A DNA stretch of 64,000 nucleotides. Source: Pontibacillus chungwhensis (GTDB taxonomy: Bacteria; Bacillota; Bacilli; Bacillales; BH030062). Shown here in pieces: positions 5,097 through 42,803 of the stretch (the first letter of the stretch is position 1; the number at the start of each line of letters is the position of its first letter). The stretch is taken from the NCBI RefSeq assembly GCF_030166655.1, contig NZ_CP126446.1, positions 1,302,001 through 1,366,000 of the forward strand, given 5' to 3'. The notes under the pieces are model-generated. The model worked only from the letters and a program-made list of their open reading frames with translations, made no database searches and was not told the origin of the DNA. The translations under genes and the position numbers were made by a program.

Positions 5097-5718
5097 GATG
5101 CTGCTTTCTATGGGAATCTTCAAATGAAGGTATTCACTAAGTATGAAGAAATTGCTTGAGAGCACTTCATAACTATAAATAGATATCCGTACCGTAACCC
5201 TCACCCAGGATTACGGTTATTTTTTCTGAAATTAACTGTAAATAGTTTGATACCCCTCTGCTTTAATAATGCCTAACCTTGGTCAATAATTTGTCTACAT
5301 ATGGGTAATTAATTGGCAGTGGTGTATCGTAATTTTGTCTGCTGTAAGCCATTTATCTGACTACAAATAATAAAAGATTAAATAGTAAAAGTGATTGTTA
5401 AAATAAGAAATAAAAGTTATCTGTAAAAGTCTTAGTTGTCCCTAAGGGACAACTTTAAGATCGAAGGTTAGAAGTAAAGTTAAGAATAGAACTTGTTAAT
5501 AAATGGAGTCTGTACCAAAATACATAAAAAGTCTTAGCACCTCTCTCTTACTATTCATAAAATTTTGGTTCGTGTTGCGGATACCCTCAAACTTAAACGA
5601 TAGAAAAACACACCAGTCCACATCATTTTTTAATTTCACACTAAAATTAGATCATTTGTCCTTTATTTAAGGATAATAGTATAATTGAACCATCCAAAAT
5701 ATGTAAAGGAGATTCAAT
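5097..5718. other. AT-rich non-coding gap with hairpins
   Basis: No convincing gene was found. It holds a terminator for the upstream remnant (stem accgtaa 5191-5197 with ttacggt 5211-5217, then T-rich to 5226), a 9-bp perfect hairpin (agttgtccc 5434-5442 with gggacaact 5446-5454, 3-nt loop), and the gajA promoter at the right end. Confidence 0.6.
5656..5685 (+). promoter_or_regulatory. Probable SigA promoter of gajA
   Basis: TTGTCC (5656-5661) and TATAAT (5680-5685) are 18 bp apart. The gajA start is 33 bp downstream with the ribosome site aaaggag at 5705-5711. Confidence 0.6.
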
Positions 5719-25116: not shown

Positions 25117-26031
25117 ATGGACGAATTAAGGGATGAGGAGATTGGAGAGCGGATGCTTGAAGCACTTCAAAAAGAGAGTAAAGATGACTCTTTTATGGAG
25201 CTACTACATACGTTTGTCCAGTCTAAACAACAAGAAGGATTCTCTTTTGCAAAAATGGTGTATCTTCATTATCTTCTCTTTGGCGGGAAGGATCGATCCG
25301 TTGTTCTTCAAGGAGCCGCTGGAATGGAAGCGTTTATCCTCGGTCTGGATATACTAGATGATCTTGAGGATCAGGACGGATCAGAGCGTGACTGGATGGA
25401 GCAACAAGCTCTTTCGATGAACGGATCGACAGGCCTAATACTTGCAGCTGTTAAGATGGTGGGAGAGGTTGATTCGACGGGACAAGCGGTTGCGCAACTA
25501 TCTCAATTCGGAATCGGTGCTGTGACAGGACAACACCATGATCTCTTAGGTGACCTTCAGTCGGAAGAGGCTTACATTCAGATGGTGGAGAGAAAATCGG
25601 GATCGCTGATGGCACTAGCGTGTCAGCTCGGTACCATTCTGGCTAAAGGAGAGTATGACTCCAGGGTTAAGGGTTACGGAGTAGAGTTTGGATGTACGGC
25701 GCAGCTTGCCAATGATCTAGAAGATGCGCTTCGTCTTGACCAGACGAACGATATTTTGCATAAGAAGAGAACGCTGCCTGTCCTAAAGTTACTGGAAGAA
25801 GAGGGGCCTTTTTCAGATCGGCTTCGTCAGTATTATGAAGGAGCGATCGGGCAGGATGAATTCCTTAAGAGGAAACAGGAAACCTTCCAATTTGTCTCTC
25901 AATCTACGGCACTCACCTATTCAAGGGTCAAGAAGCGTGTCTGGCAGTTAAGTGCGATTGACGGGGTGAAAAAAGTAGATGGGGACGAAGCGGTGAAAGC
26001 CCGGCTCGTTGCGTTTATGGAAAGAATTTAG
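25117..26031 (+). CDS. comQ: ComQ, isoprenyl transferase for ComX maturation
   Basis: A 304-residue trans-isoprenyl diphosphate synthase-like protein. The first aspartate-rich motif is DDLED at 81-85 (D78-I-L-D-D-L-E-D) and the second region reads ANDLEDALRLD. ComQ attaches a farnesyl or geranyl group to the tryptophan of pre-ComX and helps its processing and export. Directly followed by a short ORF with a C-terminal Trp and by comP and comA homologues, in the canonical order, which makes the assignment firm although isoprenoid biosynthesis enzymes look alike. Ribosome site ggaaacg is modest. Confidence 0.9.
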   Translation: MDELRDEEIGERMLEALQKESKDDSFMELLHTFVQSKQQEGFSFAKMVYLHYLLFGGKDRSVVLQGAAGMEAFILGLDILDDLEDQDGSERDWMEQQALSMNGSTGLILAAVKMVGEVDSTGQAVAQLSQFGIGAVTGQHHDLLGDLQSEEAYIQMVERKSGSLMALACQLGTILAKGEYDSRVKGYGVEFGCTAQLANDLEDALRLDQTNDILHKKRTLPVLKLLEEEGPFSDRLRQYYEGAIGQDEFLKRKQETFQFVSQSTALTYSRVKKRVWQLSAIDGVKKVDGDEAVKARLVAFMERI

Positions 26032-26098
26032 GTATACCTCATGAGGAAGGCTTCATGAGTTCTAATAAACTATAGCGGAATTATAGGAGGAATGTGTG

Positions 26099-26266
26099 AT
26101 GTTACAATCTGTAGTGGAAAAATTAATGGGGAACCAGAGTCTTTTACAGCAGTGGAAAGAAGGACAGGTTCAGTTTGACGGACTTACAAAGACAGAGGAA
26201 CTGGCTCTAGCGGATGTGTTTAGTGAAAACACAGGCGAAGTGATGAAAATGTCATTTTGGAAGTAA
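26099..26266 (+). CDS. comX: ComX quorum-sensing pheromone precursor
   Basis: A 55-residue peptide (starts MLQSVVEKLMGNQ, ends EVMKMSFWK) between comQ and comP with the ribosome site aggagg 8 bp upstream. Pre-ComX peptides are about 55 residues and carry near the C-terminus a Trp that ComQ prenylates; here W54 is next to last. The mature pheromone would be the last 5-10 residues. The sequence is unlike B. subtilis ComX, which is expected because ComX is highly variable between strains. A GTG at 26096 is an alternative start. Confidence 0.88.
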   Translation: MLQSVVEKLMGNQSLLQQWKEGQVQFDGLTKTEELALADVFSENTGEVMKMSFWK

Positions 26267-28650: not shown

Positions 28651-28716
28651 ATCGTAATAGGTTATGAAATAGAAGAAGTGTACACATTTTAGTTTAACTT
28701 GTTGGGAGCTGGAAAC

Positions 28717-29406
28717 ATGATTCATATTTTACTAGTAGATGACCATCCTTCTGTTGGGGAAGGAACGAAAGTCATGATTGAGAAAGAAGAAGATATGAAG
28801 GTAACCATTGTGGATGCGGCAGGAAAAGCGCTTCCCCTTGTGGAGGAACAGGAATTTGATGTGATGTTATTTGATCTTAGGATGCGAGGCATGAACGGTA
28901 TTGAACTCGTCAAAGAAGTACGTGCTCTTGGGAAAGAAGCACCGATCTTAATTTATACCGGTTATGACATTGGTCCTTATTTCAATACGCTTATTGAGGC
29001 GGGGGCTTCTGGATTTATTAATAAAACCGAACCCCGGGATCAGCTCATTCTTTCAATTCGCTCGGTTTTAAAAGGGAAAGTTATTCTCCCAATTGGATTG
29101 TTCAAACAGCTCCGCCGTATGGAAGTCCAGGTGGAGCAGCAAGTGGTGAAAGAAGAACAGGAAGAGCAACCAGAAGAGGAGATTCAGGAAGATGTATCGA
29201 TTAACTCGAAGGAACAAAAGATTCTGATTGAAGTCGCCAGAGGCAAAAGTAACCGAGAAATTGCCAGTATCTATTATAAAAGTCAGCGAACCATCGAGTA
29301 CAATCTCACCGAAATATTCAAGAAGCTTCAAGTGAAATCAAGAGCAGAAGCCGTCCTGAAATCAAAGCAGCTCGGCATCATATCAGACGAAGATCTCATC
29401 GAATAA
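28717..29406 (+). CDS. comA: ComA, NarL-type response regulator
   Basis: A 229-residue regulator with a receiver domain (acidic pair DD8-9 in LLVDDHPS, phosphorylated D53 in MLFDLRMRG) and a C-terminal LuxR-type helix-turn-helix (KIL...ARGKSNREIASIYYKSQRTIEYNL, given as key words). Between them lies a Glu/Gln-rich linker longer than in B. subtilis ComA. The start is ATG 28717, preceded by gggagctgg; upstream in-frame TTG is unlikely. It completes comQXPA and should activate competence, surfactant or other density-controlled genes. Confidence 0.92.
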   Translation: MIHILLVDDHPSVGEGTKVMIEKEEDMKVTIVDAAGKALPLVEEQEFDVMLFDLRMRGMNGIELVKEVRALGKEAPILIYTGYDIGPYFNTLIEAGASGFINKTEPRDQLILSIRSVLKGKVILPIGLFKQLRRMEVQVEQQVVKEEQEEQPEEEIQEDVSINSKEQKILIEVARGKSNREIASIYYKSQRTIEYNLTEIFKKLQVKSRAEAVLKSKQLGIISDEDLIE

Positions 29407-29470: not shown

Positions 29471-29603
29471 TGCGGTAAAGCAAAGCAGCGTGCCAGACAC
29501 GCGTCTATGCGGTAAAGCACCGCAACGTGTCAGACACGCGTCTGTGCGGTAAAGCACCACAGCGTGCCAGACACGCGTCAGTACGCTAAAGCGCCACAGC
29601 GCC
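29471..29603. repeat. 37-bp tandem repeat built from the GTGTCAGACAC unit
   Basis: Three full copies (29471-29507, 29508-29544, 29545-29581) and one partial copy (29582-29603). Each starts tgcggtaaagc and contains gcgtgccagacacgcgtc or its gtgtcagacac version. Differences between copies are a few bases. Confidence 0.9.
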
Positions 29604-29612
29604 TTCTCGTGC

Positions 29613-31310
29613 TTATGGTTTGGCGTTGATCCAGTATCGGTAGGAGTGGACCATGGTACCTTTGTAGGTTGGGTGGTCGGATAGCTCTGTGTTTAGTTGT
29701 TTGAGCTCTTGTTCCATGAAGGAGGCTCCTTCTTCATGGAAGGAAATGTGATTGACGTAAGGGTTTTCTTTCATTTCAACGGATAGAAGGATGTCTTTCC
29801 CTAAATCCTTGGCGTGGTCGAGTTCTTCTTCTGCCATGAAGAGAATGCCTCCTCGTCCTTCAGTGAAGTCACGGAAGGCCATGACGGATGTATGATCCAT
29901 CGTTTGAATCACCCAGCGATTAAACGGCATTCCTTTCCCTGGTGCCGGGTCTTCATCAAGCCACATGGCAAGATCCATACTCGCTTCAAGATTTGAATTC
30001 TTTCTTGTCTCTGAAGCGAAATACTCCAGGTTCCCGACCCATTGTCTCATCAGCTCTGTCTTATTGTCGTCCCAGCTTTGTAACACATAAGGTTCGATAT
30101 CCAAATGGATCCCTTGGAACATGGCTCCGTCCTCGACAGATTGATTGTATCCTTTAACATAATCAATTAAATTCTGAATTCGGTACCGCTCGCTCTCCTC
30201 AGCCCACGTGGGATGACCGCCCATTGCGTGAACCTCGATCCCTGCCTCGTGTGCCTTCTTAACGAAAGGACTATAAGAGGAGTAAGGTTGTCGTAAATCG
30301 AGCCGAACATATAGAAAGTTGAGGTTTTTCTCTTTGGCGAAAGCTAAGATGTTGTCTCCTTCGTTGATTAATCGTTCGGCTTCCCATATATACGTTCCGC
30401 GCGTCTTCTCATGCTTAACCTCTGATTCTGTCTGCTGTTCTGCATCGAGATTCAGCTGGTCTTTCACATATTGATAACTTTGAAAAGCTGTGCCAGCGTA
30501 ACTCGGATGCTCCCCGGCATGCTCTTCAAGTACCCCTAAGTGCATATTCATATCAGGAACGCCTTCCTCAGCGAAAGTTACATAATCAAGCCCCGTATCT
30601 TCCATCGTTACCCCGATTAAGAGTTTGTTCCCTGTGCGGTCTGCGGTTTCTAGTTCTGTTTCAATCAAAGACATAATGCCATTGTCTCCTTCAAGGGTTT
30701 CCCGGAAGGCTAAGATCGTTGTTTGATCATATTGATTCATTAACCACTCGTGGAAGGGTGTACCGTCTGTTCCTGGCGTTTCGAGGGTATCAAGCCAGAA
30801 AGGGATCGTTTCTGTGACGGTAAGCCCAGCTTCCTGCGCTCTGGCTGTTAGCGTCTGAACATTTTCTTTCCACCCCTTCAGAACCTCTTCTTGGTCTTCG
30901 TTCCAAAGAGGCAGGTGATAGGCTTTGATATCCACATTTAGCCCTCGGAAATGAGCGCTATCTTCAGAGCGATCGTTATAAGACTTTACCCATTTTACGA
31001 AGGCAATTCCTTCATCCTGATGAGTCGTTAGTCCCCATGAAGGTGACCCGCCCCAGGCATAAACGGCTATTCCTTCTGATTGTGCTCTCGTGATGAAAGA
31101 TTGATAAAAGGAGTCAGACTGATTTTGATCAAGCTCCACATAGAGGAGCGTCACTTGCTGATCTTTCGCTGCTTTAAGAACCTGATCTGATTCTTGTTTA
31201 AGTTGTTCCTTCTCGACATACATGACGTGATCGTTGTCCGGGGCGTGTTTGAACCCCATTAAAAAGAAGACAACCCCTGTTAGCAAAACGACATACAAAG
31301 ACTTTCTCAT
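29613..31310 (-). CDS. Secreted protein with two tandem TIM-barrel-like domains (exopolysaccharide locus)
   Basis: A 565-residue protein with an N-terminal signal or anchor (MRKSLYVVLLTGVVFFLMGF) and two homologous halves of about 270 residues. Each half has the series 'LLYVELD/LYVRLDL', 'GIAVYAWGGSPSWG / GIEVHAMGGHPTWA', 'LNVDIKAYHLPLW / IHLDIEPYVLQSW', 'FHEWLM...ILAFRETLEG / FNRWVI...VMAFRDFTEG'. The acidic DIEPY motif is kept in the second half, but is DIKAY in the first, so the first barrel probably lost catalysis. A third copy is encoded at 41811-42710. The fold suggests a glycosidase-like enzyme of unknown family. Start 31310 is chosen for its ggagg site. It faces away from the polysaccharide operon and shares its control region. 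Confidence 0.75.
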   Translation of the reverse strand: MRKSLYVVLLTGVVFFLMGFKHAPDNDHVMYVEKEQLKQESDQVLKAAKDQQVTLLYVELDQNQSDSFYQSFITRAQSEGIAVYAWGGSPSWGLTTHQDEGIAFVKWVKSYNDRSEDSAHFRGLNVDIKAYHLPLWNEDQEEVLKGWKENVQTLTARAQEAGLTVTETIPFWLDTLETPGTDGTPFHEWLMNQYDQTTILAFRETLEGDNGIMSLIETELETADRTGNKLLIGVTMEDTGLDYVTFAEEGVPDMNMHLGVLEEHAGEHPSYAGTAFQSYQYVKDQLNLDAEQQTESEVKHEKTRGTYIWEAERLINEGDNILAFAKEKNLNFLYVRLDLRQPYSSYSPFVKKAHEAGIEVHAMGGHPTWAEESERYRIQNLIDYVKGYNQSVEDGAMFQGIHLDIEPYVLQSWDDNKTELMRQWVGNLEYFASETRKNSNLEASMDLAMWLDEDPAPGKGMPFNRWVIQTMDHTSVMAFRDFTEGRGGILFMAEEELDHAKDLGKDILLSVEMKENPYVNHISFHEEGASFMEQELKQLNTELSDHPTYKGTMVHSYRYWINAKP

Positions 31311-31717
31311 TGTGTTCCTCCATCCCGAAAATGATGTCGTAAAACGGCGACAAAACATGTAAGCGTTTTAGTGTTGGAATCGTTCTCTTGCTTCTCAGGC
31401 CCCCGCATTTCGGAACCTTAATTGAACCACGCATCCATAGTGGAAACCCGGTGTGGCGAGGGTTTGGCCCCTTTTTCGGTTTCCGCATATTCGAGATCCG
31501 AAGTCCGAATTAGGAGGGCACCGCAATCGAAATTCGTGGTTCCGAAACGGGTTTTTCGAAGATAGAGTTGTCGAACCGTGTTACGTTATTAACGTGCTAA
31601 GGCGAGTTAGCAACTTCAAGTTAAATGTTTGTCAGATAATTTTCAAGAACAAATCAAAGATCAATGAAAAACGAGAAAATGTGACTACACTTCTAATTCA
31701 GGAGGGAGGCAAGAGTC
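31311..31717. other. Divergent control region with nested inverted repeats
   Basis: This 407-bp gap separates two divergent polysaccharide genes. tttcggaacc (31408-31417) is repeated inverted at 31538-31547, and ggaaacc (about 31441-31447) is inverted at about 31479-31485, so the region can fold into a long irregular hairpin. A plus-strand ribosome site aggagg lies at 31700-31706. No protein gene is visible. It may hold operators, a leader RNA, or a decayed insertion. Confidence 0.5.
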
Positions 31718-31738
31718 ATCTCAGGTAAAAGAACAGGG

Positions 31739-33826
31739 GTGGGTGTCATTCTTTTAGCAGTTGTACTAGCGATCAGCTATACAGTGCTTTCAACGTCCCA
31801 ACACGTCGAGAGCAAAACACTAGAAGACGGCACAAAGCTGAAATTTCGTACCCAACAACAATCCATCGAAATCTATCAAAATGAATCCTGGTCTCCCCTG
31901 ATGATTAAAGGGGTGAACCTGGGCGCTACTCTTCCAGGCTATTATCCTGGCTCACTCCCTCTTGACCTTGAAACGTATCAACGGTGGTTTAGAAGTATGA
32001 AAGATATGGGAGTCAACACGGTAAGGATCTACACGATTCACGAGCCGGTCTTTTATGAAGCGTTGGTTGAATTCAACCAGAAGCATCCGGATGATCCTCT
32101 TTACTTCATTCAAGGTATTTGGTCACCGGTTAAGCAGCTAAGAGAGACAGAGGACGCGCTGTCCCCTGAAGTGACGGAGGCTTTCAAAGATGAAATAAAG
32201 AGAGCGGTCGGAGCGGTTTATGGGGAGACGACCATTAAAGAAGAGGCTGGGAAAGCCAGTGGAACCTATGAATCAAATGCTGCGCCTTATTTAGTCGCTT
32301 GGCATCTTGGAACCGAATGGGATCCGAAAATGGTTCAACAAACGAACAAGTTGCATGCTGGGGAAGATCCTTTTGAAGGAGAAAGGTTTCAAGCAACAGA
32401 ACAAGCCAATCCATTTGAATCCTGGCTTGCTGAACTGCTTGATTACACGGCTCAACAAGAAAGAACACACGGGTGGGAACATCCGATGACGTTCACCAAT
32501 TGGGTCACAACTGATCCCCTCAAGCACTCTGAAGAACCGCTCATTATGGAAGACAAGGTAAGCGTTGATGCTACCCATATAAAAGAGCGGGATTGGAACG
32601 GAGGATATTTTGCTTCCTTCCACGCTTATCCTTATTATCCGGATTTCTTACGGTTAGGGGAGGCTTATAAGGATGTCTTAAACAAAAAGGGCGAACCTGA
32701 CGCGTACAAAGGGTACCTGAAGGAACTGAAAGCCTATCACAGAGACATGCCGATTATGATTACAGAGTTCGGATTGCCATCTTCACTCGGTGTCGCTCAC
32801 TTAGGTCAATATGGCCGAAATCAGGGAGGCCACACTGAAGTTGAACAAGGCGAGATGAACGCTGAACTATACAAACTCATTCAGGAAGAAGGCTACGCCG
32901 GATCCGCGCTATTCACATGGCAGGATGAGTGGTTTAAGAAAACATGGAACACCATGCCTTATGTGGAAGACGGGAGGCGCGCTTATTGGTTCAACTATTT
33001 ATCAAGCGAAACCTCTTACGGAGTCATTGGCATGTACCCAGATAAAGAAGATGATATCCGGATTGACGGTGAGATTGAAGAATGGGACAGCTTAGATGAC
33101 CTCAAGTCATACACCGTTAGGGAAAACGGAGTGAAGGATATTACCTTCACCCACGATGAAGGCTTTGTCTACATCAATGCTCATTTATCGGAAGATTCTG
33201 ATTTAGAGGGAGAAACATTCCAGCTAGGCGTGAACACACTGCCAGGCGGAACGAGCCAACCTCCATACAAGAAACCCCTTGAGGCGCTTGTGACCTTAAA
33301 CGGGGACAAGGGAGAGGTTGTTCTTTCATCGGAATATGATCCTCATCACAGACTTTATAAAGAGGAAGAGGCTGAACAGCCGAAAGAAAATCAGGCGTTC
33401 GTGCCATGGAAATTACCCGTAAGCCTCCAATTTGAACCACCGAACACGAGGCATGCTCACCCGTTTGAGGATGTGGAAGTAGGTGGACTGAAAAGAGGCG
33501 ATGCAGGAGCGTTTTCAAGTAAAACGTACGATCCGCAAATCTTTTGGGAAGCTAAGGGAAACGTCATTGAAATGAAAATTCCGTGGGCGCTCCTAGGCTT
33601 TGCAGATCCGAGTCAACGAAAGGTCATAAGCTATCCTGAAGAGGAAGAAGCTACGACCATGAAGACAGAATCAATAGAATCGATTCAATTCTTACCTGCT
33701 TTATCAGGGGAAACAGAGCAATCCGTTTCAGCGTTTGACTATAGCTTTGAGAAATGGAATCAGGTTCAATATGCAGAACGAAAGAAAAACAGTTTCTATC
33801 AAATGAAAGAAGCACTATCAAAATAA
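31739..33826 (+). CDS. Membrane-anchored glycosidase-like protein with C-terminal carbohydrate-binding-like domain
   Basis: About 695 residues: a signal anchor (about 3-20), a (beta/alpha)8 glycosidase domain (about 50-430) and a beta-sandwich (about 440-690) starting RIDGEIEEWDSLDDL, like CBM9/DOMON modules. In the barrel IKGVNLGATLPG, RIYTIHEP, the possible acid/base E193 in LGTEWDP and nucleophile E343 in MITEFGLPSS resemble GH2/GH5-type clans. It probably trims or remodels the polymer made by the downstream synthase. The start is uncertain: GTG 31739 has no spaced ribosome site, whereas the aggagg at 31700-31706 points to codon ATC at 31718 in the same frame. First gene of the plus-strand operon. 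Confidence 0.75.
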   Translation: MGVILLAVVLAISYTVLSTSQHVESKTLEDGTKLKFRTQQQSIEIYQNESWSPLMIKGVNLGATLPGYYPGSLPLDLETYQRWFRSMKDMGVNTVRIYTIHEPVFYEALVEFNQKHPDDPLYFIQGIWSPVKQLRETEDALSPEVTEAFKDEIKRAVGAVYGETTIKEEAGKASGTYESNAAPYLVAWHLGTEWDPKMVQQTNKLHAGEDPFEGERFQATEQANPFESWLAELLDYTAQQERTHGWEHPMTFTNWVTTDPLKHSEEPLIMEDKVSVDATHIKERDWNGGYFASFHAYPYYPDFLRLGEAYKDVLNKKGEPDAYKGYLKELKAYHRDMPIMITEFGLPSSLGVAHLGQYGRNQGGHTEVEQGEMNAELYKLIQEEGYAGSALFTWQDEWFKKTWNTMPYVEDGRRAYWFNYLSSETSYGVIGMYPDKEDDIRIDGEIEEWDSLDDLKSYTVRENGVKDITFTHDEGFVYINAHLSEDSDLEGETFQLGVNTLPGGTSQPPYKKPLEALVTLNGDKGEVVLSSEYDPHHRLYKEEEAEQPKENQAFVPWKLPVSLQFEPPNTRHAHPFEDVEVGGLKRGDAGAFSSKTYDPQIFWEAKGNVIEMKIPWALLGFADPSQRKVISYPEEEEATTMKTESIESIQFLPALSGETEQSVSAFDYSFEKWNQVQYAERKKNSFYQMKEALSK

Positions 33827-33840
33827 CAGGAGGAACGTGT

Positions 33841-35001
33841 ATGTTTTTCAGTTTAGATGCCGCTTTCTATGTCATTTATGTACTTGCTGGACTTATGGCC
33901 ATCATGTCATCAATCATTATCGGTATTAAAGTCAGAAAGAAGCAACTTCATAAGAAAACGCAAAAAGTGATGCAACGTTATCAGAGTTATTTCACTTACC
34001 TCACACAGCAGTTAGATGCGAAGGAACCTTTAGAGGTGCCGAAATCGGAATTAACGACATTTGAGAAAAAGGTTTTCCAGCGTGAATTAGTGGAGCGATT
34101 AGAGCGCCTATCTGGTAACCAGCGCGACAAGCTGATTCAGCTTTGTAACGATCTTGGTCTTAAAGAATTCAATATGAAACGCCTTAAGAGCGGACGTCAC
34201 TATGTTCGTCTTGAAGCGGCTTACAACCTAGGGGCTATGCGCGCGAAAGAGGCGGTGCCATCCCTTTGCAAAATGCTTTATAAGAATAAGAAAGACTCAA
34301 CCAGGTTCATTGTAGCTCGTTCGATTGCTCAAACGGCAACATCAACAGGGCAGATCAATGACATGATTCATTATCTAGCAAAGGATCAAGAGAATAATTA
34401 TCAGCTCATTGTCGACATTGCACAAGAGTCTGATCTTGATCTTAGTGGAGCATTCATTTCATTACTCAAAGAATCCAATCCAGAGTTAACGAAGGTAGGA
34501 TTGTTCGGATTAAGGCATCAACCAGATTCTGAAATCCATTCCATTCTTCGTCCTCACCTTGACTCGAAAGACTTTGATATTCGCACGAATACAGCGAAAT
34601 TGATGGTCGCTTCTGGTCAATGTAGTCAAAAAGAGATGGAACAATTCATGAAATTTAAAGATGAAGAAGTCCGTTTATATACAGGCGAATGGATCGGGCA
34701 AGCAGGTATGCGTCAGTATCAGGAAGTTCTTGAACTGGGTGTTCAAGATAAGAATCAACAAGTCGCAAGAACGAGTGCGAAGAGCTTGTCTCAGCTTGGC
34801 GAATCTGGTTTCCGTACCCTTTGTAAGCTTGCTGTTAGTAACTTATCAAACGGAACAGTCGCTTTTGAAGCTGTGCATGAACACCTGAAAGAAAGTGCTG
34901 CTGGCTATGCGACAAATCGTAAAATTGCAGATTATAACCAAAAGCTATCGATCTATGAAACGTACTTCGGCAAAGACCAACAGCTTATTGACGCCATGTA
35001 A
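33841..35001 (+). CDS. HEAT-repeat protein with N-terminal membrane anchor
   Basis: A 386-residue protein: one membrane segment (about 6-28), a basic linker (IKVRKKQLHKKTQK), and then a helical solenoid of HEAT-like repeats (for example YVRLEAAYNLGAMRAKEAVPSLCKML, quoted here by its key word AAYNLGAMRAKEAV; later DIRTNTAKLMVASGQ and VARTSAKSLSQLGES). Such solenoids are scaffolds. Start 33841 follows aggagg and lies 15 bp after the previous stop; the next gene starts 21 bp after its end. Its position just before the GT2 polymerase suggests a cytoplasmic partner of the synthase. No enzymatic motif. Confidence 0.8.
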   Translation: MFFSLDAAFYVIYVLAGLMAIMSSIIIGIKVRKKQLHKKTQKVMQRYQSYFTYLTQQLDAKEPLEVPKSELTTFEKKVFQRELVERLERLSGNQRDKLIQLCNDLGLKEFNMKRLKSGRHYVRLEAAYNLGAMRAKEAVPSLCKMLYKNKKDSTRFIVARSIAQTATSTGQINDMIHYLAKDQENNYQLIVDIAQESDLDLSGAFISLLKESNPELTKVGLFGLRHQPDSEIHSILRPHLDSKDFDIRTNTAKLMVASGQCSQKEMEQFMKFKDEEVRLYTGEWIGQAGMRQYQEVLELGVQDKNQQVARTSAKSLSQLGESGFRTLCKLAVSNLSNGTVAFEAVHEHLKESAAGYATNRKIADYNQKLSIYETYFGKDQQLIDAM

Positions 35002-35021
35002 TTGGTAGAAAGGGGAGAGGC

Positions 35022-36440
35022 ATGAGAGAAATATTACTCGGTTACGGCATTTTCGCAATGTATTATGTCCTAACCATCAACACGATCTACTTCGGGATTA
35101 TCTTATTCTCATTTAAAGAAATCTCTAAAATCCTAAAAAGCACGACATTCTCGAAATACAAATCACTATCTGGATCAAACAACGTACCACCTATTTCGAT
35201 ACTCGTACCAGCGTTTAACGAAGAATTAACGATTATTGAAAACGTGCGATCCCTCCTGGCTCTTCATTATCCGAAACATGAAGTAATCGTCGTCAACGAT
35301 GGATCAAGCGACGACACAGTAGGAGTAATGATTAAAGAATTTGAACTTCAATATTACAAACCAACATCGATGAAAGATGTCATTAAGACGGCCAAAGTAA
35401 GAGGCCTTTACTACAACCCGGATTATCCGAACCTTTACGTTGTGGATAAGGAAAACGGCGGTAAAGCCGACTCCTTAAATGCAGGGATTAACTTATCTAG
35501 CTATCCACTGATTTCATCCATTGATGCTGACTCTTTATTAGAAGAGGATGCCCTGATTCGCATTGCACGCATGTACATGGAAAAGCCAGAAGAATATGTA
35601 GCAATTGGCGGAAATGTACGCATTGCCAACGGATGCAAAATCGAAAACGGCGTTGTCAAAAATGTAAAACTACCGAAAAAGCTTCTCCCAATGTGGCAGC
35701 TAGTTGAATATATGAAAGCCTTCTTAGGCGGACGTATCGGCTGGAGTTCTGTAAATGGTCTGATTATTGTATCTGGTGCCTTCGGGGTCTTCCGTAAAGA
35801 CTACGTTGTCGAAGTTGGAGGATACCGCGGCGGTTATCCAGGTGAAGACATGAACATTATTATTAAGCTTCATCGCCATATGCTTGAGAACAATTTACCT
35901 TATAAAGTGGCCTTTTGTCCGGACGCTGTTTGCTGGACGCAGGCGCCTGACACCTTCAAGATCCTTGGAAGTCAGCGTAAGCGTTGGGGACGTGGAAACT
36001 TGAAGAACATGATCGAAGAAGGACGCTTCATGTTTATGCGACCGAAATACAAGATCATGGGTTGGTTGACCATTCCTTATAACATTATTTTTGAAACATT
36101 AAGTCCTTATTTCCGAATTACAGGACTCCTTGCTCTTATTGGTTATGCGCTAATGGACATGTCCGGTTGGAAGATCCTCCTGACCTTTAGCTTAATTAAC
36201 ATTCTATACGGAACGCTGCTTGGACTAGGATCGATGCTTCTTGAAGAGATCGCCTTCCAGCGTTATCCGAGAATACGAGATTTCTTCAAAATGCTGATCT
36301 ATACCGTATTGATGTTCTTTGGTTATCGTCAACTCGGTATTCTGTGGAGATTCCTTGGTCACATCGATTTCTTCCGCAAGAAAACGTCTTGGGGAACGAT
36401 GGTACGAACCAGCTTCAACGAAGATAAGAAATCAGCCTAA
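35022..36440 (+). CDS. Processive GT2 polysaccharide synthase
   Basis: A 472-residue membrane glycosyltransferase of the PgaC/IcaA/hyaluronan synthase type. A membrane segment at about 8-32, the GT2 catalytic domain (about 57-330) with VNDGSSDD (D93), DAD at 168-170, the catalytic GED at 274-276 and QRKRW at 318-322 (QxxRW, the mark of processive synthases), then about four C-terminal membrane segments. It would polymerise a UDP-sugar and extrude the chain. Neighbouring precursor genes point to an amino-sugar/uronic-acid polymer. The polymer identity cannot be read from sequence. Confidence 0.9.
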   Translation: MREILLGYGIFAMYYVLTINTIYFGIILFSFKEISKILKSTTFSKYKSLSGSNNVPPISILVPAFNEELTIIENVRSLLALHYPKHEVIVVNDGSSDDTVGVMIKEFELQYYKPTSMKDVIKTAKVRGLYYNPDYPNLYVVDKENGGKADSLNAGINLSSYPLISSIDADSLLEEDALIRIARMYMEKPEEYVAIGGNVRIANGCKIENGVVKNVKLPKKLLPMWQLVEYMKAFLGGRIGWSSVNGLIIVSGAFGVFRKDYVVEVGGYRGGYPGEDMNIIIKLHRHMLENNLPYKVAFCPDAVCWTQAPDTFKILGSQRKRWGRGNLKNMIEEGRFMFMRPKYKIMGWLTIPYNIIFETLSPYFRITGLLALIGYALMDMSGWKILLTFSLINILYGTLLGLGSMLLEEIAFQRYPRIRDFFKMLIYTVLMFFGYRQLGILWRFLGHIDFFRKKTSWGTMVRTSFNEDKKSA

Positions 36441-36464
36441 TCGATTAAAAGGGGGTAATCAGCT

Positions 36465-37271
36465 GTGGAACAGCATGTAGGGTCACGAATCATACAGACG
36501 TTTCATCATTTTCTTCAGTATTATCAGGAAAGTAACTTAGCTTGTGGAATGATTATTGCCCGCGCAGATCTGGATGCGAAACAACTCGAGAGAGTGAAAG
36601 CGCACATGGAAAGAATGGAGCCAGAAGTTGGCGTTCAGTTCAGCCATGACCAGGAAGAAGGGTTAGTCGGAATTCTGTTAGACAACCGTACGATTGGGTA
36701 TTCTCACTTTTATTCCTTATATGTAAAAGAATTCTTAGAGGACAATGGCTTCTTAACGGGCCCCATACTAGTGGGGAGTTTCCCGGAGAGCAGCCCATAC
36801 GCCGAGCAGATGCTTTTTGATATGATCACTGAAATCATAGAAAGTGGCGGAGAAAAGGGTGAGATCCGCGTCTTTAAAAAAGGAAACGAAAAGAAGAACG
36901 ATTCGATCCTGATCGTCGATAGTGATCAGAAAGTATTAGAGCTTGTGACCTCGTATTTTACTCATAAAGGCTACACCGTCCATACCGCAACAGACGGGAA
37001 AGAAGGCGTAGCCCAGTATGAGTTGCATCATCCGAATTTGGTTATTACAGAGATCAACCTGTCAGCGCTTGGTGGGTATCAGTTTATTCACCATATAAAG
37101 CATTTAGAATCCATCAAGGCTGCGCCGATCATGGTGCTTACGAATAAACAGTTAGAAGAAGACGTAAAGCGAACGTTTGAATACGGTGTATCGGACTACG
37201 TTACGAAGCCATTTTCTTTAATGGAAATCGAACAACGGATGGTCAAGCTGTTACAACCGGTGCATTCCTAA
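36465..37271 (+). CDS. Response-regulator-like protein with Glu at the phosphorylation site
   Basis: 268 residues. The C-terminal half (about 146-268) is a receiver domain: acidic pocket D152/D154 in LIVDSDQ, T226 and K248 (VTKPF) are present, but the phospho-acceptor Asp is replaced by Glu (E196 in NLVITEINL). Glu often mimics the phosphorylated state, so it may be permanently active or not phosphorylated. The N-terminal 140 residues are not clearly assigned; IIARADLD near the start and GPILVGSFPESSPYAEQML near the end faintly resemble a degenerate GGDEF domain with no GGDEF motif. No DNA-binding domain. Its location between synthase and dehydrogenase suggests post-translational control of polymer synthesis. 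Confidence 0.75.
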   Translation: MEQHVGSRIIQTFHHFLQYYQESNLACGMIIARADLDAKQLERVKAHMERMEPEVGVQFSHDQEEGLVGILLDNRTIGYSHFYSLYVKEFLEDNGFLTGPILVGSFPESSPYAEQMLFDMITEIIESGGEKGEIRVFKKGNEKKNDSILIVDSDQKVLELVTSYFTHKGYTVHTATDGKEGVAQYELHHPNLVITEINLSALGGYQFIHHIKHLESIKAAPIMVLTNKQLEEDVKRTFEYGVSDYVTKPFSLMEIEQRMVKLLQPVHS

Positions 37272-37302
37272 TCGAATCATTATTTTATAGGGGGATTTAT
37301 TC

Positions 37303-38658
37303 ATGAAATATGCAAATCATTTAGCTCAGAAAATCGAAGCGAAAAAAGCGAACATTGGTGTTGTAGGCATGGGGTATGTTGGACTTCCGCTTGCAGTTGA
37401 AATGGTGAAATCCGGTTTCAACGTAACGGGAATCGATCTTGATCCGAACAAAATCAACGCCTTAAAAGCTGGTGATTCCTATATCGGGGACATCACAGAT
37501 GAAGAACTAACAGAGGCAATGGAATCAGGCCGTTTCCGTCCTTCAACAGACTATAGCCTAGTCAATGAACTAGATGCGATCAGCATTTGTGTACCGACGC
37601 CACTAAGTGAAAACCAGGATCCGGATACATCTTATATCACAAGCGTTATTGACCAGGTGAAGATGTATATGAAGAAGGGCACATTGATCACGCTTGAAAG
37701 TACAACGTACCCAGGAACAACAGAAGAGCTTATTCTTAGTGAGTTAAACAAACTTGGCTATCAAGCAGGAGACGACTTCTTCCTTTGCTATTCTCCTGAA
37801 CGAGTAGACCCAGGTAACGATAAATTTAACACGAAGAACATGCCGAAAGTAATTGGTGGGGTTACACCGAAATGTAGTGAACTAGGTGCGAGCCTTTACA
37901 AGAACTACGTAGGGAATGTTGTGCCTGTTTCATCTCCACGCGTAGCTGAGATGTCTAAGCTTCTTGAAAATACGTTCCGAAGCGTCAATATTGCTTTCGT
38001 GAATGAAATTGCGATGATGTGTGAACGAATGGATATCGATGTATGGGAAGTCATCGATGCAGCGGCAACGAAACCATTCGGCTTCATGAAGTTCCAGCCA
38101 GGACCAGGAATTGGCGGTCACTGCATCCCGCTTGATCCGATGTACCTTTCTTGGAAAGCAAAAGGATTCCGTTTCTACAGCAAGTTCATTGATCTAGCTC
38201 AATCGATCAATAGCAACATGCCTGACGTGGTCGTGTCTAAGACGTCTCAAGTACTAAACGTATACGGTCGTTCTATTAATAGCTCAAACATCTTAATTCT
38301 AGGAATGGCATACAAGCCAAATATCAGTGACCTTCGTGAATCTCCAGGTCTTTACCTTTATGAGCTTTACAAAGAGAACGGGGCTAATATCGAGTACTGC
38401 GATCCACATGCTCACAGCTTCATTGATGATGACGGTGAAATTGTAAGATCTGTTCCATATAACAGAGAGCAATTGAAGAAATACGATTGCATGGTGCTTG
38501 TAACGAATCACTCTGACTTTGATTATCAAGAGCTTGCTGACTTAGGCGTACCGATTGTCGATACTCGTAACGCATTTGAAGAGTACGATCGCGATCACAT
38601 TCACAAGCTTGGAACATCTTCTAAAGTTCATTCTAAAGACCATTCTATTGCACTATAA
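37303..38658 (+). CDS. UDP-N-acetylhexosamine 6-dehydrogenase (WbpA/WecC type)
   Basis: A 451-residue nucleotide-sugar dehydrogenase. It has a Rossmann motif GVVGMGYVGLPLA (residues 19-31), YSPERVDPGN, and the active-site PGPGIGGHCIPLDPMYLSWKAKG region whose Cys forms the thioester during the two-step oxidation. The HCIPLDP with SWKAK is typical of enzymes acting on UDP-GlcNAc or UDP-ManNAc rather than UDP-glucose. The product, UDP-GlcNAcA or UDP-ManNAcA, would feed the neighbouring synthase. No 2-epimerase is encoded nearby, which favours GlcNAcA unless a housekeeping epimerase is used. Confidence 0.88.
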   Translation: MKYANHLAQKIEAKKANIGVVGMGYVGLPLAVEMVKSGFNVTGIDLDPNKINALKAGDSYIGDITDEELTEAMESGRFRPSTDYSLVNELDAISICVPTPLSENQDPDTSYITSVIDQVKMYMKKGTLITLESTTYPGTTEELILSELNKLGYQAGDDFFLCYSPERVDPGNDKFNTKNMPKVIGGVTPKCSELGASLYKNYVGNVVPVSSPRVAEMSKLLENTFRSVNIAFVNEIAMMCERMDIDVWEVIDAAATKPFGFMKFQPGPGIGGHCIPLDPMYLSWKAKGFRFYSKFIDLAQSINSNMPDVVVSKTSQVLNVYGRSINSSNILILGMAYKPNISDLRESPGLYLYELYKENGANIEYCDPHAHSFIDDDGEIVRSVPYNREQLKKYDCMVLVTNHSDFDYQELADLGVPIVDTRNAFEEYDRDHIHKLGTSSKVHSKDHSIAL

Positions 38659-38712
38659 GTAGCACGTAACAGAGTAGGAACCATTACAACAACACAAAGG
38701 GAGATGAATAAT

Positions 38713-40545
38713 ATGTGCGGAATCATGGGGTATATTGGACAACAACAAACACAAGAGATCTTAACGAACGGACTGAAGAAATTAGAGTACCGCGGCTATG
38801 ACTCTGTCGGGGTGGCGATCCATGACGGAGAATCAGTTCAGGTAACAAAAGCAGAAGGGCGCCTTGATAATCTGGCATCTCGTTTAGAGAATGCACCGTT
38901 ACAGGGCTCTATCGGAATTGGTCATACACGTTGGGCGACACATGGTCGTCCTTCTGACCAAAACTCTCACCCACACACAGATGACAACACAGAATTCGCA
39001 GTCGTTCATAACGGCATTATCGAGAACTACATTGAGCTTAAGCAAGAGCTTGTGGCAGAGGGCGCAACATTTACATCTGAAACAGATTCAGAAGTCATTG
39101 CTCAGCTCCTTTCTAAACTATACGACGGCGATATGATTACAACGATTCAGAAAGTCATCGAAAAGTTAGATGGTGCCTATGCGCTAGGAATCGTTTCTGA
39201 ACATGCACCAGGTAAGCTTTATGCCGTTCGTCAAGCGAGCCCGCTTATTATTGGCTCTGGAGACGGAGAGAACTTCATCAGCTCTGACATTCCAGCTGTT
39301 TTAGAGCATACGCGTGATGTGTACATTCTAGAAGACGGTGAAATGGCTGTATTAACAGAAGAGAACATTTCTCTTATGGACGTAACAACAGGCAACCCGA
39401 TCTCTCGTGATTTATTCCGCGTTGATTGGGATATGGAACAAGCAGAGAAGAACGGATTCGATCATTTCATGCTTAAAGAAATCTTTGAACAGCCTAAAGC
39501 CCTTGAGAAAACAATGGCTGGTCGTATTGATAAAGAAACAAACGAAGTAGATTTCCCTGAGCTTGCATGGAGCGAAGAACAGGTAGCGAAGTGGGATAAA
39601 GTGCACATCGTCGCATGTGGAACAGCTTACCACGCTGGATTACTAGGTAAATCGGTTATTGAAGAATTAACACGCACACCAGTAGACGTTGAGGTTGCGT
39701 CAGAATTCCGTTACCGTAATCCAATCGTCACAGAGAATACGCTTGTCATTGCTGTGAGTCAGTCTGGTGAAACAGCAGATACGCTTGCTGCATTACGTCA
39801 AAGTAAAGAACTGGGCGCAAAAACGTTGTCCATTACGAATGTTGTAGGAAGCTCCATTTCAAGAGAAGCAGATGACGTCATCTTAACCCTTGCAGGTCCT
39901 GAGATTGCCGTTGCTTCAACAAAAGCGTACACGACACAGGTATTATCTTTCTATCTATTAGGCATCTATTTAGCTCAGAAGAAAAAGCAGATTACACCTG
40001 AACAGAACGCCCAGTACATGAAAGCTCTTCAGCACATTCCAGAGCAAATGGAAGAGATTCTGTTCCATAATGACGATATCAAAAATTACGGCGAATCCAT
40101 TAAAGACGCGAAGAGCGTGTTCTTCTTGGGACGTGGAATCGATACCGCCGTTGCGCTTGAAGGGTCTCTCAAGTTAAAAGAGATTTCTTATATCCACTCT
40201 GAGGCTTATGCAGCGGGAGAATTAAAACACGGTACGCTTGCGTTAATTGAAGAAGGCACACCAATCATTTCCTTGCTCACTCAAGAGAACCTTTACGACA
40301 AGATGCTTGGAAACATTAAAGAAGTAAGTGCCCGAGGAGCAAATGTTTTAGGAATCACAATGAGTGGGAATGTAAAGGTAACACAATACGTAGACGAAAC
40401 ATGCTTTATCCCTGAAACGTATTCTCTATTTACACCACTACTATCGGTTGTACCATTGCAGCTGATTTCCTATTATACATCTCTTGCACTTGGCAACGAT
40501 GTGGACAAACCTCGTAACCTGGCAAAGAGTGTAACGGTAGAATAA
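38713..40545 (+). CDS. glmS: Glucosamine-6-phosphate synthase (GlmS), locus-dedicated copy
   Basis: A 610-residue enzyme converting fructose-6-phosphate and glutamine to glucosamine-6-phosphate, the first step to UDP-GlcNAc. Start is ATG 38713 because Cys must follow Met (MCGIMGYIG) to become the catalytic N-terminal nucleophile; the ATG 9 bp earlier would bury it. The glutaminase domain (to about 240) and two SIS domains (VASEFRYRNP, SQSGETADTL, ending DKPRNLAKSVTVE) are complete. Only 54 bp separate it from the preceding gene, so there is no room for the glmS ribozyme that controls the housekeeping gene in Bacillaceae. Confidence 0.95.
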   Translation: MCGIMGYIGQQQTQEILTNGLKKLEYRGYDSVGVAIHDGESVQVTKAEGRLDNLASRLENAPLQGSIGIGHTRWATHGRPSDQNSHPHTDDNTEFAVVHNGIIENYIELKQELVAEGATFTSETDSEVIAQLLSKLYDGDMITTIQKVIEKLDGAYALGIVSEHAPGKLYAVRQASPLIIGSGDGENFISSDIPAVLEHTRDVYILEDGEMAVLTEENISLMDVTTGNPISRDLFRVDWDMEQAEKNGFDHFMLKEIFEQPKALEKTMAGRIDKETNEVDFPELAWSEEQVAKWDKVHIVACGTAYHAGLLGKSVIEELTRTPVDVEVASEFRYRNPIVTENTLVIAVSQSGETADTLAALRQSKELGAKTLSITNVVGSSISREADDVILTLAGPEIAVASTKAYTTQVLSFYLLGIYLAQKKKQITPEQNAQYMKALQHIPEQMEEILFHNDDIKNYGESIKDAKSVFFLGRGIDTAVALEGSLKLKEISYIHSEAYAAGELKHGTLALIEEGTPIISLLTQENLYDKMLGNIKEVSARGANVLGITMSGNVKVTQYVDETCFIPETYSLFTPLLSVVPLQLISYYTSLALGNDVDKPRNLAKSVTVE

Positions 40546-40567
40546 ATCGAAGAAGGAGGGTTCCCTC

Positions 40568-40735
40568 TTGCAAAAGGAACGCCACCAAACAACGCTCGAT
40601 GAATCAAACCTTAAAACGATTATGCTTAATCTGCAGGAAAAGATTAATGATCAAACCATCTCAGAAGATGGCCAGATCTTAACCACACTCATTAACGACC
40701 TGCGTCCTCACTTCAGTGGAGCAGGCAATGAATAA
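40568..40735 (+). CDS. Small protein, 55 residues, in the polysaccharide operon
   Basis: A TTG-started frame with aaggaggg 8 bp upstream, coding MQKERHQTTLDESNLKTIML and ending HFSGAGNE. It is helical and soluble, with no membrane segment. It lies 22 bp after glmS and uses similar codons, so it is likely co-translated. Family and function are not recognised; a small regulatory subunit is possible. Confidence 0.6.
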   Translation: MQKERHQTTLDESNLKTIMLNLQEKINDQTISEDGQILTTLINDLRPHFSGAGNE

Positions 40736-40749
40736 AATTCCTTTAACGA

Positions 40750-40776
40750 AGTAAAGCGTGTCTGACACGCTTTACT
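40750..40776. repeat. 27-bp perfect palindrome of the GTGTCAGACAC family
   Basis: agtaaagcgtgtc and gacacgctttact flank a single central T. It lies inside the polysaccharide operon, before the glmU-like gene; as RNA it would be a 13-bp hairpin. Confidence 0.85.
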
Positions 40777-40811
40777 CTAATAAAGGATTAGGAACAAAGG
40801 GAGTGAAGTTG

Positions 40812-41792
40812 ATGGAACGTACATATGCGGTTGTGTTAGCAGCTGGTAAAGGAACGAGAATGAAGTCAGATCTTCCGAAAGTCCTTCATCCGGTTTGTGG
40901 AAAGCCGATGGTTGAACATATTACAGATCTACTGAAAGACCTCTCTATGAACGAAATCGTTACCGTAGTGGGGCACAAACACGAAATGATAGAAGAGCAA
41001 CTTGGGGACTCTGTCACCTATGCTCACCAGAAGGAGCAGCTAGGAACGGCTCATGCTGTTGGGATGAGTGCTGAGAAGCTGGCGGATCAGGAAGGGACTA
41101 CGGTCATTGTGACAGGCGATACGCCGCTTATTACAAGTCAGACCATTCAGAACCTACTCGATCACCACCGTGAAACGAAAGCGGCAGCTACGATCTTAAC
41201 GATGTTGCCTGAAGATCCAACAGGGTACGGACGCATTGTTCGGAATGAAGACGGAAACGTAGAACGAATTGTAGAACAAAAAGATGCCACACCAGAAGAA
41301 CAAGCTATTGGTGAAGTCAATACAGGCATCTTCTGCTTTGATAACAAGTTGTTATTCGAATCCTTAGACCAAGTTGGAACAAATAACAATCAAAGCGAAT
41401 ACTATCTGCCTGATGTCATAGAAATATTAAAAGAACAAGGTTACACCATTTCAGCTAACTCCACGGAAGATGTAGCTGAAGGACTTGGCGTCAATGATCG
41501 CATCCAACTGGCTAAAGCAGAGAAGATTATGCAGGACCGAATCATTGAAGGCCATATGAAAAACGGTGTTTCCTTCGTCGATCCGTCCACAAGTTACGTC
41601 GAGAAAGACGTCACGATTGGACAAGATACACTGATAGAACCTCGAGCTCATTTAAGAGGAAAGACGGTGATTGGTTCTTACTGCGTCATTGGTCCAGATG
41701 TTGATCTTAAAGACTTCGAAGCCCGGGACAAAACACGGGTGCAGAACTTCTCAATGACCAATGACATTTGTAAGATACCGATTCACTCATAA
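40812..41792 (+). CDS. Truncated GlmU: UDP-GlcNAc pyrophosphorylase without acetyltransferase domain
   Basis: 326 residues. The N-terminal nucleotidyltransferase domain is intact: VVLAAGKGTRMKSDLPKVL (residues 5-23), HPVCGKPM, QLGTAHAV, TGDTPL, GYGRIVR and VNTGIF. It makes UDP-GlcNAc from GlcNAc-1-phosphate and UTP. Full GlmU has about 456 residues; here only a few left-handed-helix hexapeptides remain (about 270-310) before an unrelated end (MTNDICKIPIHS), so the glucosamine-1-phosphate acetyltransferase active site is missing. The housekeeping GlmU must supply acetylation. Start 40812 follows ggagtgaag. Confidence 0.88.
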   Translation: MERTYAVVLAAGKGTRMKSDLPKVLHPVCGKPMVEHITDLLKDLSMNEIVTVVGHKHEMIEEQLGDSVTYAHQKEQLGTAHAVGMSAEKLADQEGTTVIVTGDTPLITSQTIQNLLDHHRETKAAATILTMLPEDPTGYGRIVRNEDGNVERIVEQKDATPEEQAIGEVNTGIFCFDNKLLFESLDQVGTNNNQSEYYLPDVIEILKEQGYTISANSTEDVAEGLGVNDRIQLAKAEKIMQDRIIEGHMKNGVSFVDPSTSYVEKDVTIGQDTLIEPRAHLRGKTVIGSYCVIGPDVDLKDFEARDKTRVQNFSMTNDICKIPIHS

Positions 41793-41810
41793 AGGGTGGG
41801 TCAGACCATT

Positions 41811-42710
41811 GTGAGAAAGATGAAAAGGATCGCAAAACAATACAAAATCCCGGCAATTCTTCTTGGTGTGATTATTGTAATAGGAGTGGCCGTCATGAGT
41901 GAAAGTCATCCAAAGACCAAAGCAACCTGGATTTGGGATCTGTCTAAGATTGAAGGAGATCCGAGTCAGCCTGTTTCCTTCTTGGAAGAAGAAGGTGTCA
42001 ACCGGGTCTATCTTCATATTGATTTCGAAACCTTCAAACCAGGTCCTTATCGATCCTTTATTAAAGAAGCAACGAAAGCGGATATCGATGTATATGCGCT
42101 AGGAGGAGACCCGAACTGGGCGCTTCTAAAAAACCGTGACAGCCTCGATCGTTTTGCTTCCATTGTCCATGATTACAACAACATGGTTGGGGAAGATGAA
42201 GCCTTCAAGGGTGTTCACTTGGATATTGAGCCTTACCTTCTATCAGAGTGGAAGGAAGACAGTGACAATGTGAAGAATCAGTGGATGATGAATAGCGTTC
42301 ATTTTATTCGCCAGGTGAAAGAAAAGGCAAACCTCGCCGTAAGCGGTGATTTTCCTTTTTGGATTCACAAAGAAAAAGTGCCTTATAAGGATCAAACGTT
42401 GAGTGACTGGATGATGGAACATTATGATTCCTTAACGCTGATGGCTTACCGCAATAAAGCAGAGGGGCCAAACGGCATTCAATCCATCTCAGAACCTATC
42501 GTTAACGAGGCACGTAAAAATGGAAAGACCGTCGTCGTTGGTGTCAACATCATCGATACGTCAGAAGGAAGCTACACGACGTTTCATGGAGACGCACCAG
42601 GTGCGATGAATGAAGAACTAGATGTTCTACAAAATGCCTACAAACGCCATGATGGCTACGAGGGCATAGCGATACATGATTATTCGCATTGGGTTGACCA
42701 AGCGAAATAA
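41811..42710 (+). CDS. Membrane-anchored single-copy version of the locus TIM-barrel protein
   Basis: About 299 residues: a basic N-terminus and signal anchor (IPAILLGVIIVIGVAVM), then one barrel domain homologous to both halves of the protein at 29613-31310: VYLHIDFE, DVYALGGDPNWA, VHLDIEPYLLSEW, WMMEHYDSLTLMAYRNKAEGPNG and a C-terminal IAIHDYSHW. The DIEPY acidic motif is present. Start at GTG 41811 follows aaagggtggg, 18 bp after the glmU-like stop; ATG 41820 is possible. Probably an extracellular enzyme acting on the polymer. Last gene of the operon. Confidence 0.78.
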   Translation: MRKMKRIAKQYKIPAILLGVIIVIGVAVMSESHPKTKATWIWDLSKIEGDPSQPVSFLEEEGVNRVYLHIDFETFKPGPYRSFIKEATKADIDVYALGGDPNWALLKNRDSLDRFASIVHDYNNMVGEDEAFKGVHLDIEPYLLSEWKEDSDNVKNQWMMNSVHFIRQVKEKANLAVSGDFPFWIHKEKVPYKDQTLSDWMMEHYDSLTLMAYRNKAEGPNGIQSISEPIVNEARKNGKTVVVGVNIIDTSEGSYTTFHGDAPGAMNEELDVLQNAYKRHDGYEGIAIHDYSHWVDQAK

Positions 42711-42766
42711 TGATAAATAGATAGACTTTGTGAAAAATGCATCTCCCCCTAATTTATAGATGCAAA

Positions 42767-42803
42767 AAAAACGCCATCCACTCTAGTGGATGGCGTTTTT
42801 GTG
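42767..42803 (+). terminator. Terminator of the polysaccharide operon
   Basis: aaaaacgccatcca (42767-42780) pairs with tggatggcgttttt (42787-42800). Confidence 0.9.

Follow-up and report, generated by a model that had tools for sequence, protein, structure and literature searches.

A putative synthase-dependent exopolysaccharide operon of Pontibacillus chungwhensis and its relatives among the Bacilli

What is made by a compact set of genes that joins a processive family 2 glycosyltransferase (GT2) to enzymes of amino-sugar and nucleotide-sugar metabolism, and what might control it? The set in question lies in a 64,000-nucleotide stretch of the 4.17 Mb genome of Pontibacillus chungwhensis, probably a salt-loving host (contig NZ_CP126446.1, positions 1,302,001 to 1,366,000; this whole stretch is called the window), and consists of an operon of nine forward-strand genes, at about 31718-42710, and one divergent reverse-strand gene, at about 29613-31310. 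A preliminary description had assigned it the span 29471..42803, which is right as to location and slightly wide at the ends, and all of the genes named there are present. They code for GHA (the first protein of the operon), a HEAT-repeat protein, GT2, a receiver protein, a nucleotide-sugar dehydrogenase (UGD), GlmS, a 55-residue protein, half of GlmU, TIMb and, divergently, TIMx2 (Table 1, in which ribosome-binding sites served to refine the translation starts). That they constitute a synthase-dependent exopolysaccharide system, as was originally proposed, is probably correct. Three features come in addition to that description: comQXPA genes directly upstream, a conserved leader element and an AUC/AUU start codon.

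The GT2 synthase and its companion genes

UGD accompanies one clade of GT2. Ninety-six loci (L039-L134) were scored by tblastn, and their GT2s are at least 60% identical to that of the window in 66 (the close group), 50-60% in 11 (middle) and less than 50% in 11 (distant), with no GT2 in the remaining eight. (Three of the 66 close-GT2 loci are contigs fetched twice. Mixed-strand open reading frame (ORF) rows in some loci are the product of a greedy ORF picker, and tblastn was used to count presence and absence anew.) UGD is present in 65 of the 66 close loci, at no more than 1.4 kb from GT2, and the single exception is a cut contig; it is found in none of the 11 middle and none of the 11 distant loci. 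GHA occurs in all loci of all three groups. The HEAT protein is found in all 66 close and all 11 middle loci and, by tblastn, in none of the distant ones, although Pfam still detects HEAT repeats in L054 and L058; the corresponding counts for close, middle and distant loci are 65, 2 and 3 for TIMb, 65, 11 and 8 for the receiver protein, 31, 10 and 0 for GlmS, and 27, 0 and 0 for GlmU. The GT2, HEAT and TIM-barrel families thus recur together well outside the window. The association of UGD with one GT2 clade supports the idea of a polymer with its own precursor supply, GlmS and GlmU being optional parts of it.

GT2 itself retains D93, D168, D170, GED (274-276) and QxxRW (318-322) in 16 of 16 aligned sequences, and it falls below the cut-off of all 25 NCBIfam models listed, of 26 matched. 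Its best curated score is with the poly-N-acetylglucosamine (PNAG) synthases PgaC/IcaA (TIGR03937), with which it shares QxxRW; this score, 135 bits, is far under the 422 bits of the cut-off, and the operon contains no deacetylase domain. The score with the XrtG-associated GT2 model TIGR03111 is nearly equal (134 of 364 bits), and that with the cellulose CelA equivalog is 38 of 699 bits. These low values, the low scores of UGD with TuaD and AglM (below), and the lack of a deacetylase domain in any of the ten proteins bear out the view that hallmarks of Pga/Ica, Bcs and a UDP-glucose dehydrogenase are missing. GT2 sequences were compared between the groups, 11 each from the middle and distant groups and 62 from the close one (which numbers 67, the window's and 66 others, less five that had no clean ORF). 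At seven positions (15, 272, 323, 364, 432, 439 and 443) the close clade has a residue fixed to 97% or more that is absent from the middle group. Two of the seven flank catalytic motifs: Y272 precedes GED and G323 follows QxxRW. The pattern is what a changed substrate might leave in the sequence; one ancestral event would give an equal pattern.

The gene set is found in Pontibacillus, Halobacillus, Gracilibacillus, Salibacterium, Brevibacillus, Paenibacillus and relatives, and the gene order is conserved between genera whose GHA proteins are about 50% identical, which is more than chance would give. The set was said to be of unfamiliar composition. No description of it was found in the open-access literature (titles and abstract openings among the matches listed), and to this extent the statement stands, but the set is widespread and not peculiar to one Pontibacillus genome. 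A contig search yielded at least 76 named loci from at least 585 relatives. In a class-wide GT2 search, in which at most four candidates were scored per genome so that counts are lower bounds, identities among the matches listed are 58-100% or 34-43%, with none between. GT2s 99% identical to that of the window occur in genome G076 and in P. salipaludis contig L059.

Of 249 genomes of the order, 88 have GHA relatives, and in ten of these 88 the protein is of the window type (at least 51% identity). In most of the other genomes the open frame has about 1,000-1,130 residues and stands in other surroundings (type B). Seven of eight genomes of the window's genus carry the window type, the eighth (G136) carries type B only, and the window genome holds both (its type B locus is L039). 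Type B loci (L039, L053-L056, L058) are widespread in the order. The sets in L053, L054 and L058 are not equally complete; they draw on a GGDEF protein with receivers, a hybrid kinase, GHA, GT2 and a HEAT protein. In most middle-group loci the gene order is GlmS-HEAT-GT2-receiver-GHA. Four loci of the middle group (L078, L103, L119, L125), where GT2 stands without UGD, have a further GHA-like ORF on the opposite strand at the edge of the stretch retrieved.

A hydrophobic anchor is found at the N-terminus of GHA, TIMb and TIMx2. GHA is, by predicted fold, a clan GH-A glycoside hydrolase: the model is a (beta/alpha)8 barrel in which E193 follows strand 4 and E343 lies at strand 7, and all 36 aligned sequences have this catalytic Glu pair. 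A sequence search of the PDB with GHA gave no useful match. TIMb matches the solved structure 10yv at profile level (3.2e-29), and its D143 and E145 are invariant in an alignment of 29 sequences. The C-terminal repeat of TIMx2 retains the DxE motif. In the N-terminal repeat its place is taken by DIK in L041, L040/L059 and the window; the remaining Bacillaceae rows gave no match to a motif of this kind there.

The receiver gene product consists of a 140-residue N-terminal domain and a receiver. Of 31 aligned sequences, 27 have Glu at the phospho-acceptor position of the receiver. In two loci (L044:9191-9655 and L045:8791-9255) the regulator ends before the receiver and has 154 residues only. 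A degenerate GGDEF domain was considered for the N-terminus. Profile comparison does not favor it (hhalign probability 0.3%, compared with 3.0% for a control receiver-GGDEF pairing); the topology of the model is compatible with GGDEF, and the matches of the fold searches were taken up by receivers, the other part of the protein. Pfam finds only weak matches in this domain over the 31 members (GlnR_1st in 10, the VpsR domain in four). Relatives of the 55-residue protein occupy three locus rows, L042, L043 and the duplicate of the latter, L060.

Table 1. Features of the locus and of the genes upstream (window coordinates)
Feature	Coordinates	Strand	Basis and remarks
ComQ-like isoprenyl transferase	25117..26031	+	PF00348 1.5e-14; relatives upstream of operon in 10 other Bacillaceae-type genomes
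ComX pre-pheromone, 56 residues, ends FWK	26096..26266	+	PF05952 1.3e-19, 70 bits (cut-off 25)
ComP-like histidine kinase	26347..28650	+	HisKA_3, HATPase, weak PDZ; position conserved
ComA-like response regulator	28699..29406	+	REC and LuxR-type HTH; relatives 63-91% identical in same place
TIMx2, divergent anchored protein, two TIMb-like repeats	29613..31310	-	start after GGAGGAACACA
Leader element ATTCG[TC]NNNTCCGAA ... TTTTCGA[TA]G ... TGTTA	31525..31595	+	aligned in 12 distinct Bacillaceae-type genomes
GHA, anchored, predicted clan GH-A glycoside hydrolase with beta-rich C-terminal domain; AUC start	31718..33826	+	
HEAT-repeat protein, one N-terminal transmembrane segment	33841..35001	+	PF13646 1.5e-14; transmembrane segment and ribosome-binding site
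GT2 synthase	35022..36440	+	PF13641 1.2e-20; GED 274-276, QRKRW 318-322; alignment
N-terminal domain and pseudo-receiver	36465..37271	+	E196 in phospho-acceptor place
UGD, nucleotide-sugar (putative UDP-N-acetylhexosamine) 6-dehydrogenase	37303..38658	+	TIGR03026 423 bits; below WecC, TviB and TuaD cut-offs
GlmS	38704..40545	+	TIGR01135 9e-245; MCGI from residue 4 is the likely true start
55-residue protein, TTG start after AAGGAGG	40568..40735	+	33-35% identical relatives in same place in two genomes
GlmU N-terminal uridylyltransferase domain	40812..41792	+	PRK14354 441 bits (cut-off 450), positions 1-311 of 447
TIMb, anchored TIM-barrel-like protein	41796..42710	+	invariant D143, E145; profile match to solved 10yv

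Upstream genes, leader element and GHA start

The genes between 25117 and 29406 code, in this order, for an isoprenyl transferase, a member of the ComX family, a HisKA_3 kinase and a REC-LuxR regulator, that is, for a complete comQXPA. The order and the ComX family match are those of B. subtilis ComQXPA, from which the window copy differs in adjoining an exopolysaccharide-type operon. The ComQ-like gene is the sole strong comQ match in the genome. The region before the operon could be read in 11 Bacillaceae-type genomes, and all 11 have a complete comQXPA immediately upstream (the window, G076, G213, G036, G108, G187, G236, G161, G075, L061 and L065; in a twelfth, G186, the contig end cuts this region). 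The ComX of G075 was seen as an ORF and not by BLAST; the ComX Pfam family match also appears in L060 and L061. Rows of window-ORF BLAST matches in Paenibacillus loci held only the operon families, no dedicated comQXPA search having been made there. The position of these genes makes control of the operon by the adjacent ComQXPA most likely in Bacillaceae-type loci. This modifies the notion that the operon has its own regulator: the receiver encoded within it is in most cases a pseudo-receiver, and transcription is more likely regulated from next door. A comX gene of a Pontibacillus is already in print (PMC8389477), and the main text of a comQXPA census (PMC4008528) names neither Halobacillus, Pontibacillus or Gracilibacillus nor exopolysaccharide.

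A leader element of about 70 bases, confined to loci of the comQXPA type and shared by their genera, lies between the divergent genes. In an alignment of 12 sequences 31 of 152 columns are invariant, most of them inside the element. Its first motif occurs upstream of GHA in 15 rows (12 genomes) and in none of the 79 other rows, among which only L133 matched the second motif. The second motif is visible in all 12 aligned sequences, although four genomes escaped the search pattern, which was too narrow for them (five rows: L046, L047, L048, L061 and L069, the last a duplicate of L048). There is one exact copy of the element in the genome, and a further match at three mismatches is at the level of a reversed-pattern control. 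An RNA element was rejected: the consensus fold has five pairs, none of them changed on both sides, and for the window leader Rfam gave only two weak matches (E 3 and 4.2). Because there is no covariation, the leader is treated as a DNA element, and it looks like an operator-promoter. A canonical ComA box was also considered and rejected, since 11 of the 12 leaders have none at up to two mismatches (that of Gracilibacillus L061 has a perfect one) and the whole window has 14 matches at up to three mismatches, fewer than the 18 expected. Far from the operon, at 5575-5590, a B. subtilis ComA box with one mismatch lies about 130 bases before an ORF of 585 residues; it could be there by chance.

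GHA starts with AUC or AUU (31718-31720 in the window) in eight of nine genomes examined, with ATC in five and ATT in three (the window, G076, G213, G036, G108, G187 and G236 within the genus, and G161). The codon is in frame, eight bases after a purine-rich ribosome-binding site (for L010 and L011 a GGGGG run was taken as the point to count from), and opens the sequence I/M-x-x-K, after which comes the membrane anchor. In L042 the first canonical start lies past the anchor and therefore cannot be the natural one; in L016 an in-frame ATG lies 30 nt before the ATT and has, by eye, no good ribosome-binding site. In other genera the GHA ORFs, as called, open with ATG, GTG or TTG.

The proposed polymer and its alternatives

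The polymer proposed here would combine N-acetylglucosamine (GlcNAc) with an N-acetylhexosamine (HexNAc) uronic acid, probably N-acetylglucosaminuronic acid (GlcNAcA), and the choice of uronate turns on UGD. UGD is below the cut-offs for UDP-glucose dehydrogenases (TuaD, 150 of 700 bits; AglM, 159 of 670 bits; no HasB model was among those seen), for the UDP-ManNAc dehydrogenase WecC (251 of 459 bits; ManNAc, N-acetylmannosamine) and for the UDP-GlcNAc dehydrogenase TviB (214 of 592 bits). The same genome also codes for a TuaD-like protein (L135, 526 bits, cut-off 700) and a WecC-like protein (L137, 445 bits, cut-off 459), and UGD is a third kind, 32% identical to the latter. Relatives on plasmids, up to 51% identical, are named only nucleotide sugar dehydrogenase among the 25 of 986 matches listed. 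A UDP-GlcNAc 2-epimerase gene is present in 40 of 40 genomes (10 from the search of the order for GHA relatives and 30 from the class-wide GT2 search); by eye, no contig has it closer than 70 kb to the locus (the shortest distance is about 74 kb, in G508), and in many drafts it sits on another contig. Since the epimerase is not seen near the locus while UGD is unlike the WecC- and TuaD-like enzymes, UDP-GlcNAc is most likely the substrate and UDP-GlcNAcA the direct product. This alters the earlier suggestion of a hyaluronan-like polymer: an amino sugar joined to a uronate is plausible, and a HexNAc-uronate, not glucuronate, is indicated.

The polymer might instead carry N-acetylmannosaminuronic acid (ManNAcA), UGD being a divergent UDP-ManNAc dehydrogenase that draws on the housekeeping epimerase for a GlcNAc-ManNAcA chain. 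The best named scores of UGD are indeed with UDP-ManNAc dehydrogenases (259 and 251 bits) and its top solved relative is Cap5O, a UDP-ManNAc dehydrogenase; yet 251 bits is far under a WecC cut-off that the genome's own L137 only just misses, and GlmS, GlmU and a GlmM-like gene, rather than the epimerase, have been recruited to the loci, so that this version appears unlikely. A GlcNAc homopolymer that is altered once it has been made, UGD then belonging to the synthesis of some other glycan, would suit the middle-group loci, all but one of which have GlmS and none UGD, and the PgaC score of GT2; set against the proximity of UGD to GT2 in the close clade and its absence from all 22 other loci, it is the most improbable of the alternatives. 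Nor does the product have to be released. The genera carrying the operon are spore formers, and the anchored barrels could be wall-remodelling enzymes acting on a secondary cell-wall or spore-surface polymer, but no wall-linkage or flippase family is found among the ten proteins, GT2 is of the synthase type and one group has a quorum-sensing neighbor; a wall or spore polymer is accordingly quite improbable.

On the GlcNAc-GlcNAcA proposal the parts of the locus could act as follows. UGD would make UDP-HexNAc-uronic acid, likely UDP-GlcNAcA directly from UDP-GlcNAc, the flux of which would be raised by GlmS, the GlmU half and, in some relatives, a GlmM-like protein. (A GlmM-like gene, judged from N-terminal sequence alone, adjoins the set in four loci inspected; a relative of the GlmU half, 52% identical, lies in a 472-residue frame at C1:65457.) GT2, in the inner membrane, would polymerize and extrude the chain from UDP-GlcNAc and UDP-HexNAc-uronic acid, with the HEAT and pseudo-receiver proteins beside it as scaffold and regulator. 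Outside the cell the anchored GHA, TIMb and TIMx2 barrels may trim, release or remodel the chain. In Bacillaceae-type loci ComQXPA would switch the operon through the conserved leader, and in Pontibacillus the AUC/AUU start may damp GHA output.

The most far-reaching version of the proposal is possible rather than probable: an undescribed class of acidic polymer in which GlcNAc and GlcNAcA alternate or are mixed (an analogue of hyaluronan, as it were, retaining the N-acetyl group on its uronate), made by the GT2 clade marked by Y272 and G323 and remodelled by two uncharacterised families of anchored barrel hydrolases, with ComX induction at density and rationing of GHA by an IF3-sensitive AUC/AUU start in Pontibacillus and its neighbors. 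Several observations weigh against the GlcNAc-GlcNAcA proposal and its control by ComQXPA. The association of UGD with the GT2 clade may reflect a single gain, and two of the clade positions, 15 and 443, are common to the distant group as well. GlmS and GlmU are each found in fewer than half of the close-GT2 loci. UGD could use UDP-ManNAc, there being an epimerase elsewhere in every genome checked, in many drafts on another contig. No comQXPA is found in the 10 kb examined upstream of six Brevibacillus loci that have the operon (a seventh, L070, is cut), so quorum control is not general; ComA boxes at up to two mismatches are wanting in all leaders except one; and the ninth genome examined for the GHA start, G075, has ATG.

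Relation to known systems

The streptococcal hyaluronan operon is hasABC(DE), in which hasD is glmU. The likeness to it lies in the single GT2 synthase, the dedicated nucleotide-sugar dehydrogenase and the precursor glmU, all in one operon. The window operon differs in that its dehydrogenase is not of the UDP-glucose class, in its additional anchored barrels, HEAT protein and pseudo-receiver, and in a GT2 that scores best with the PgaC and TIGR03111 models. Within the order, the type B loci (L053, L054, L058 and the window genome's own L039) share with the window type GHA and a GT2 that is 38-42% identical, as well as HEAT repeats by Pfam in L054 and L058. Type B is set apart by a 400-residue N-terminal extension of GHA, by the absence of UGD, GlmS and GlmU from the 11 distant loci, by an Hpt-REC-GGDEF-REC protein (L053, L058) and by a hybrid kinase (L054, L058).

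If the proposal is correct, a widespread synthase-type polymer of Gram-positive bacteria would join a short list, and the GT2 clade together with UGD would provide a genetic handle on HexNAc-uronate polymers. A comQXPA outside the B. subtilis group would also be tied to a likely adjacent target. Known examples of non-canonical initiation are infC and pcnB, and the conserved AUC/AUU start of GHA is a rare and directly testable case of it.

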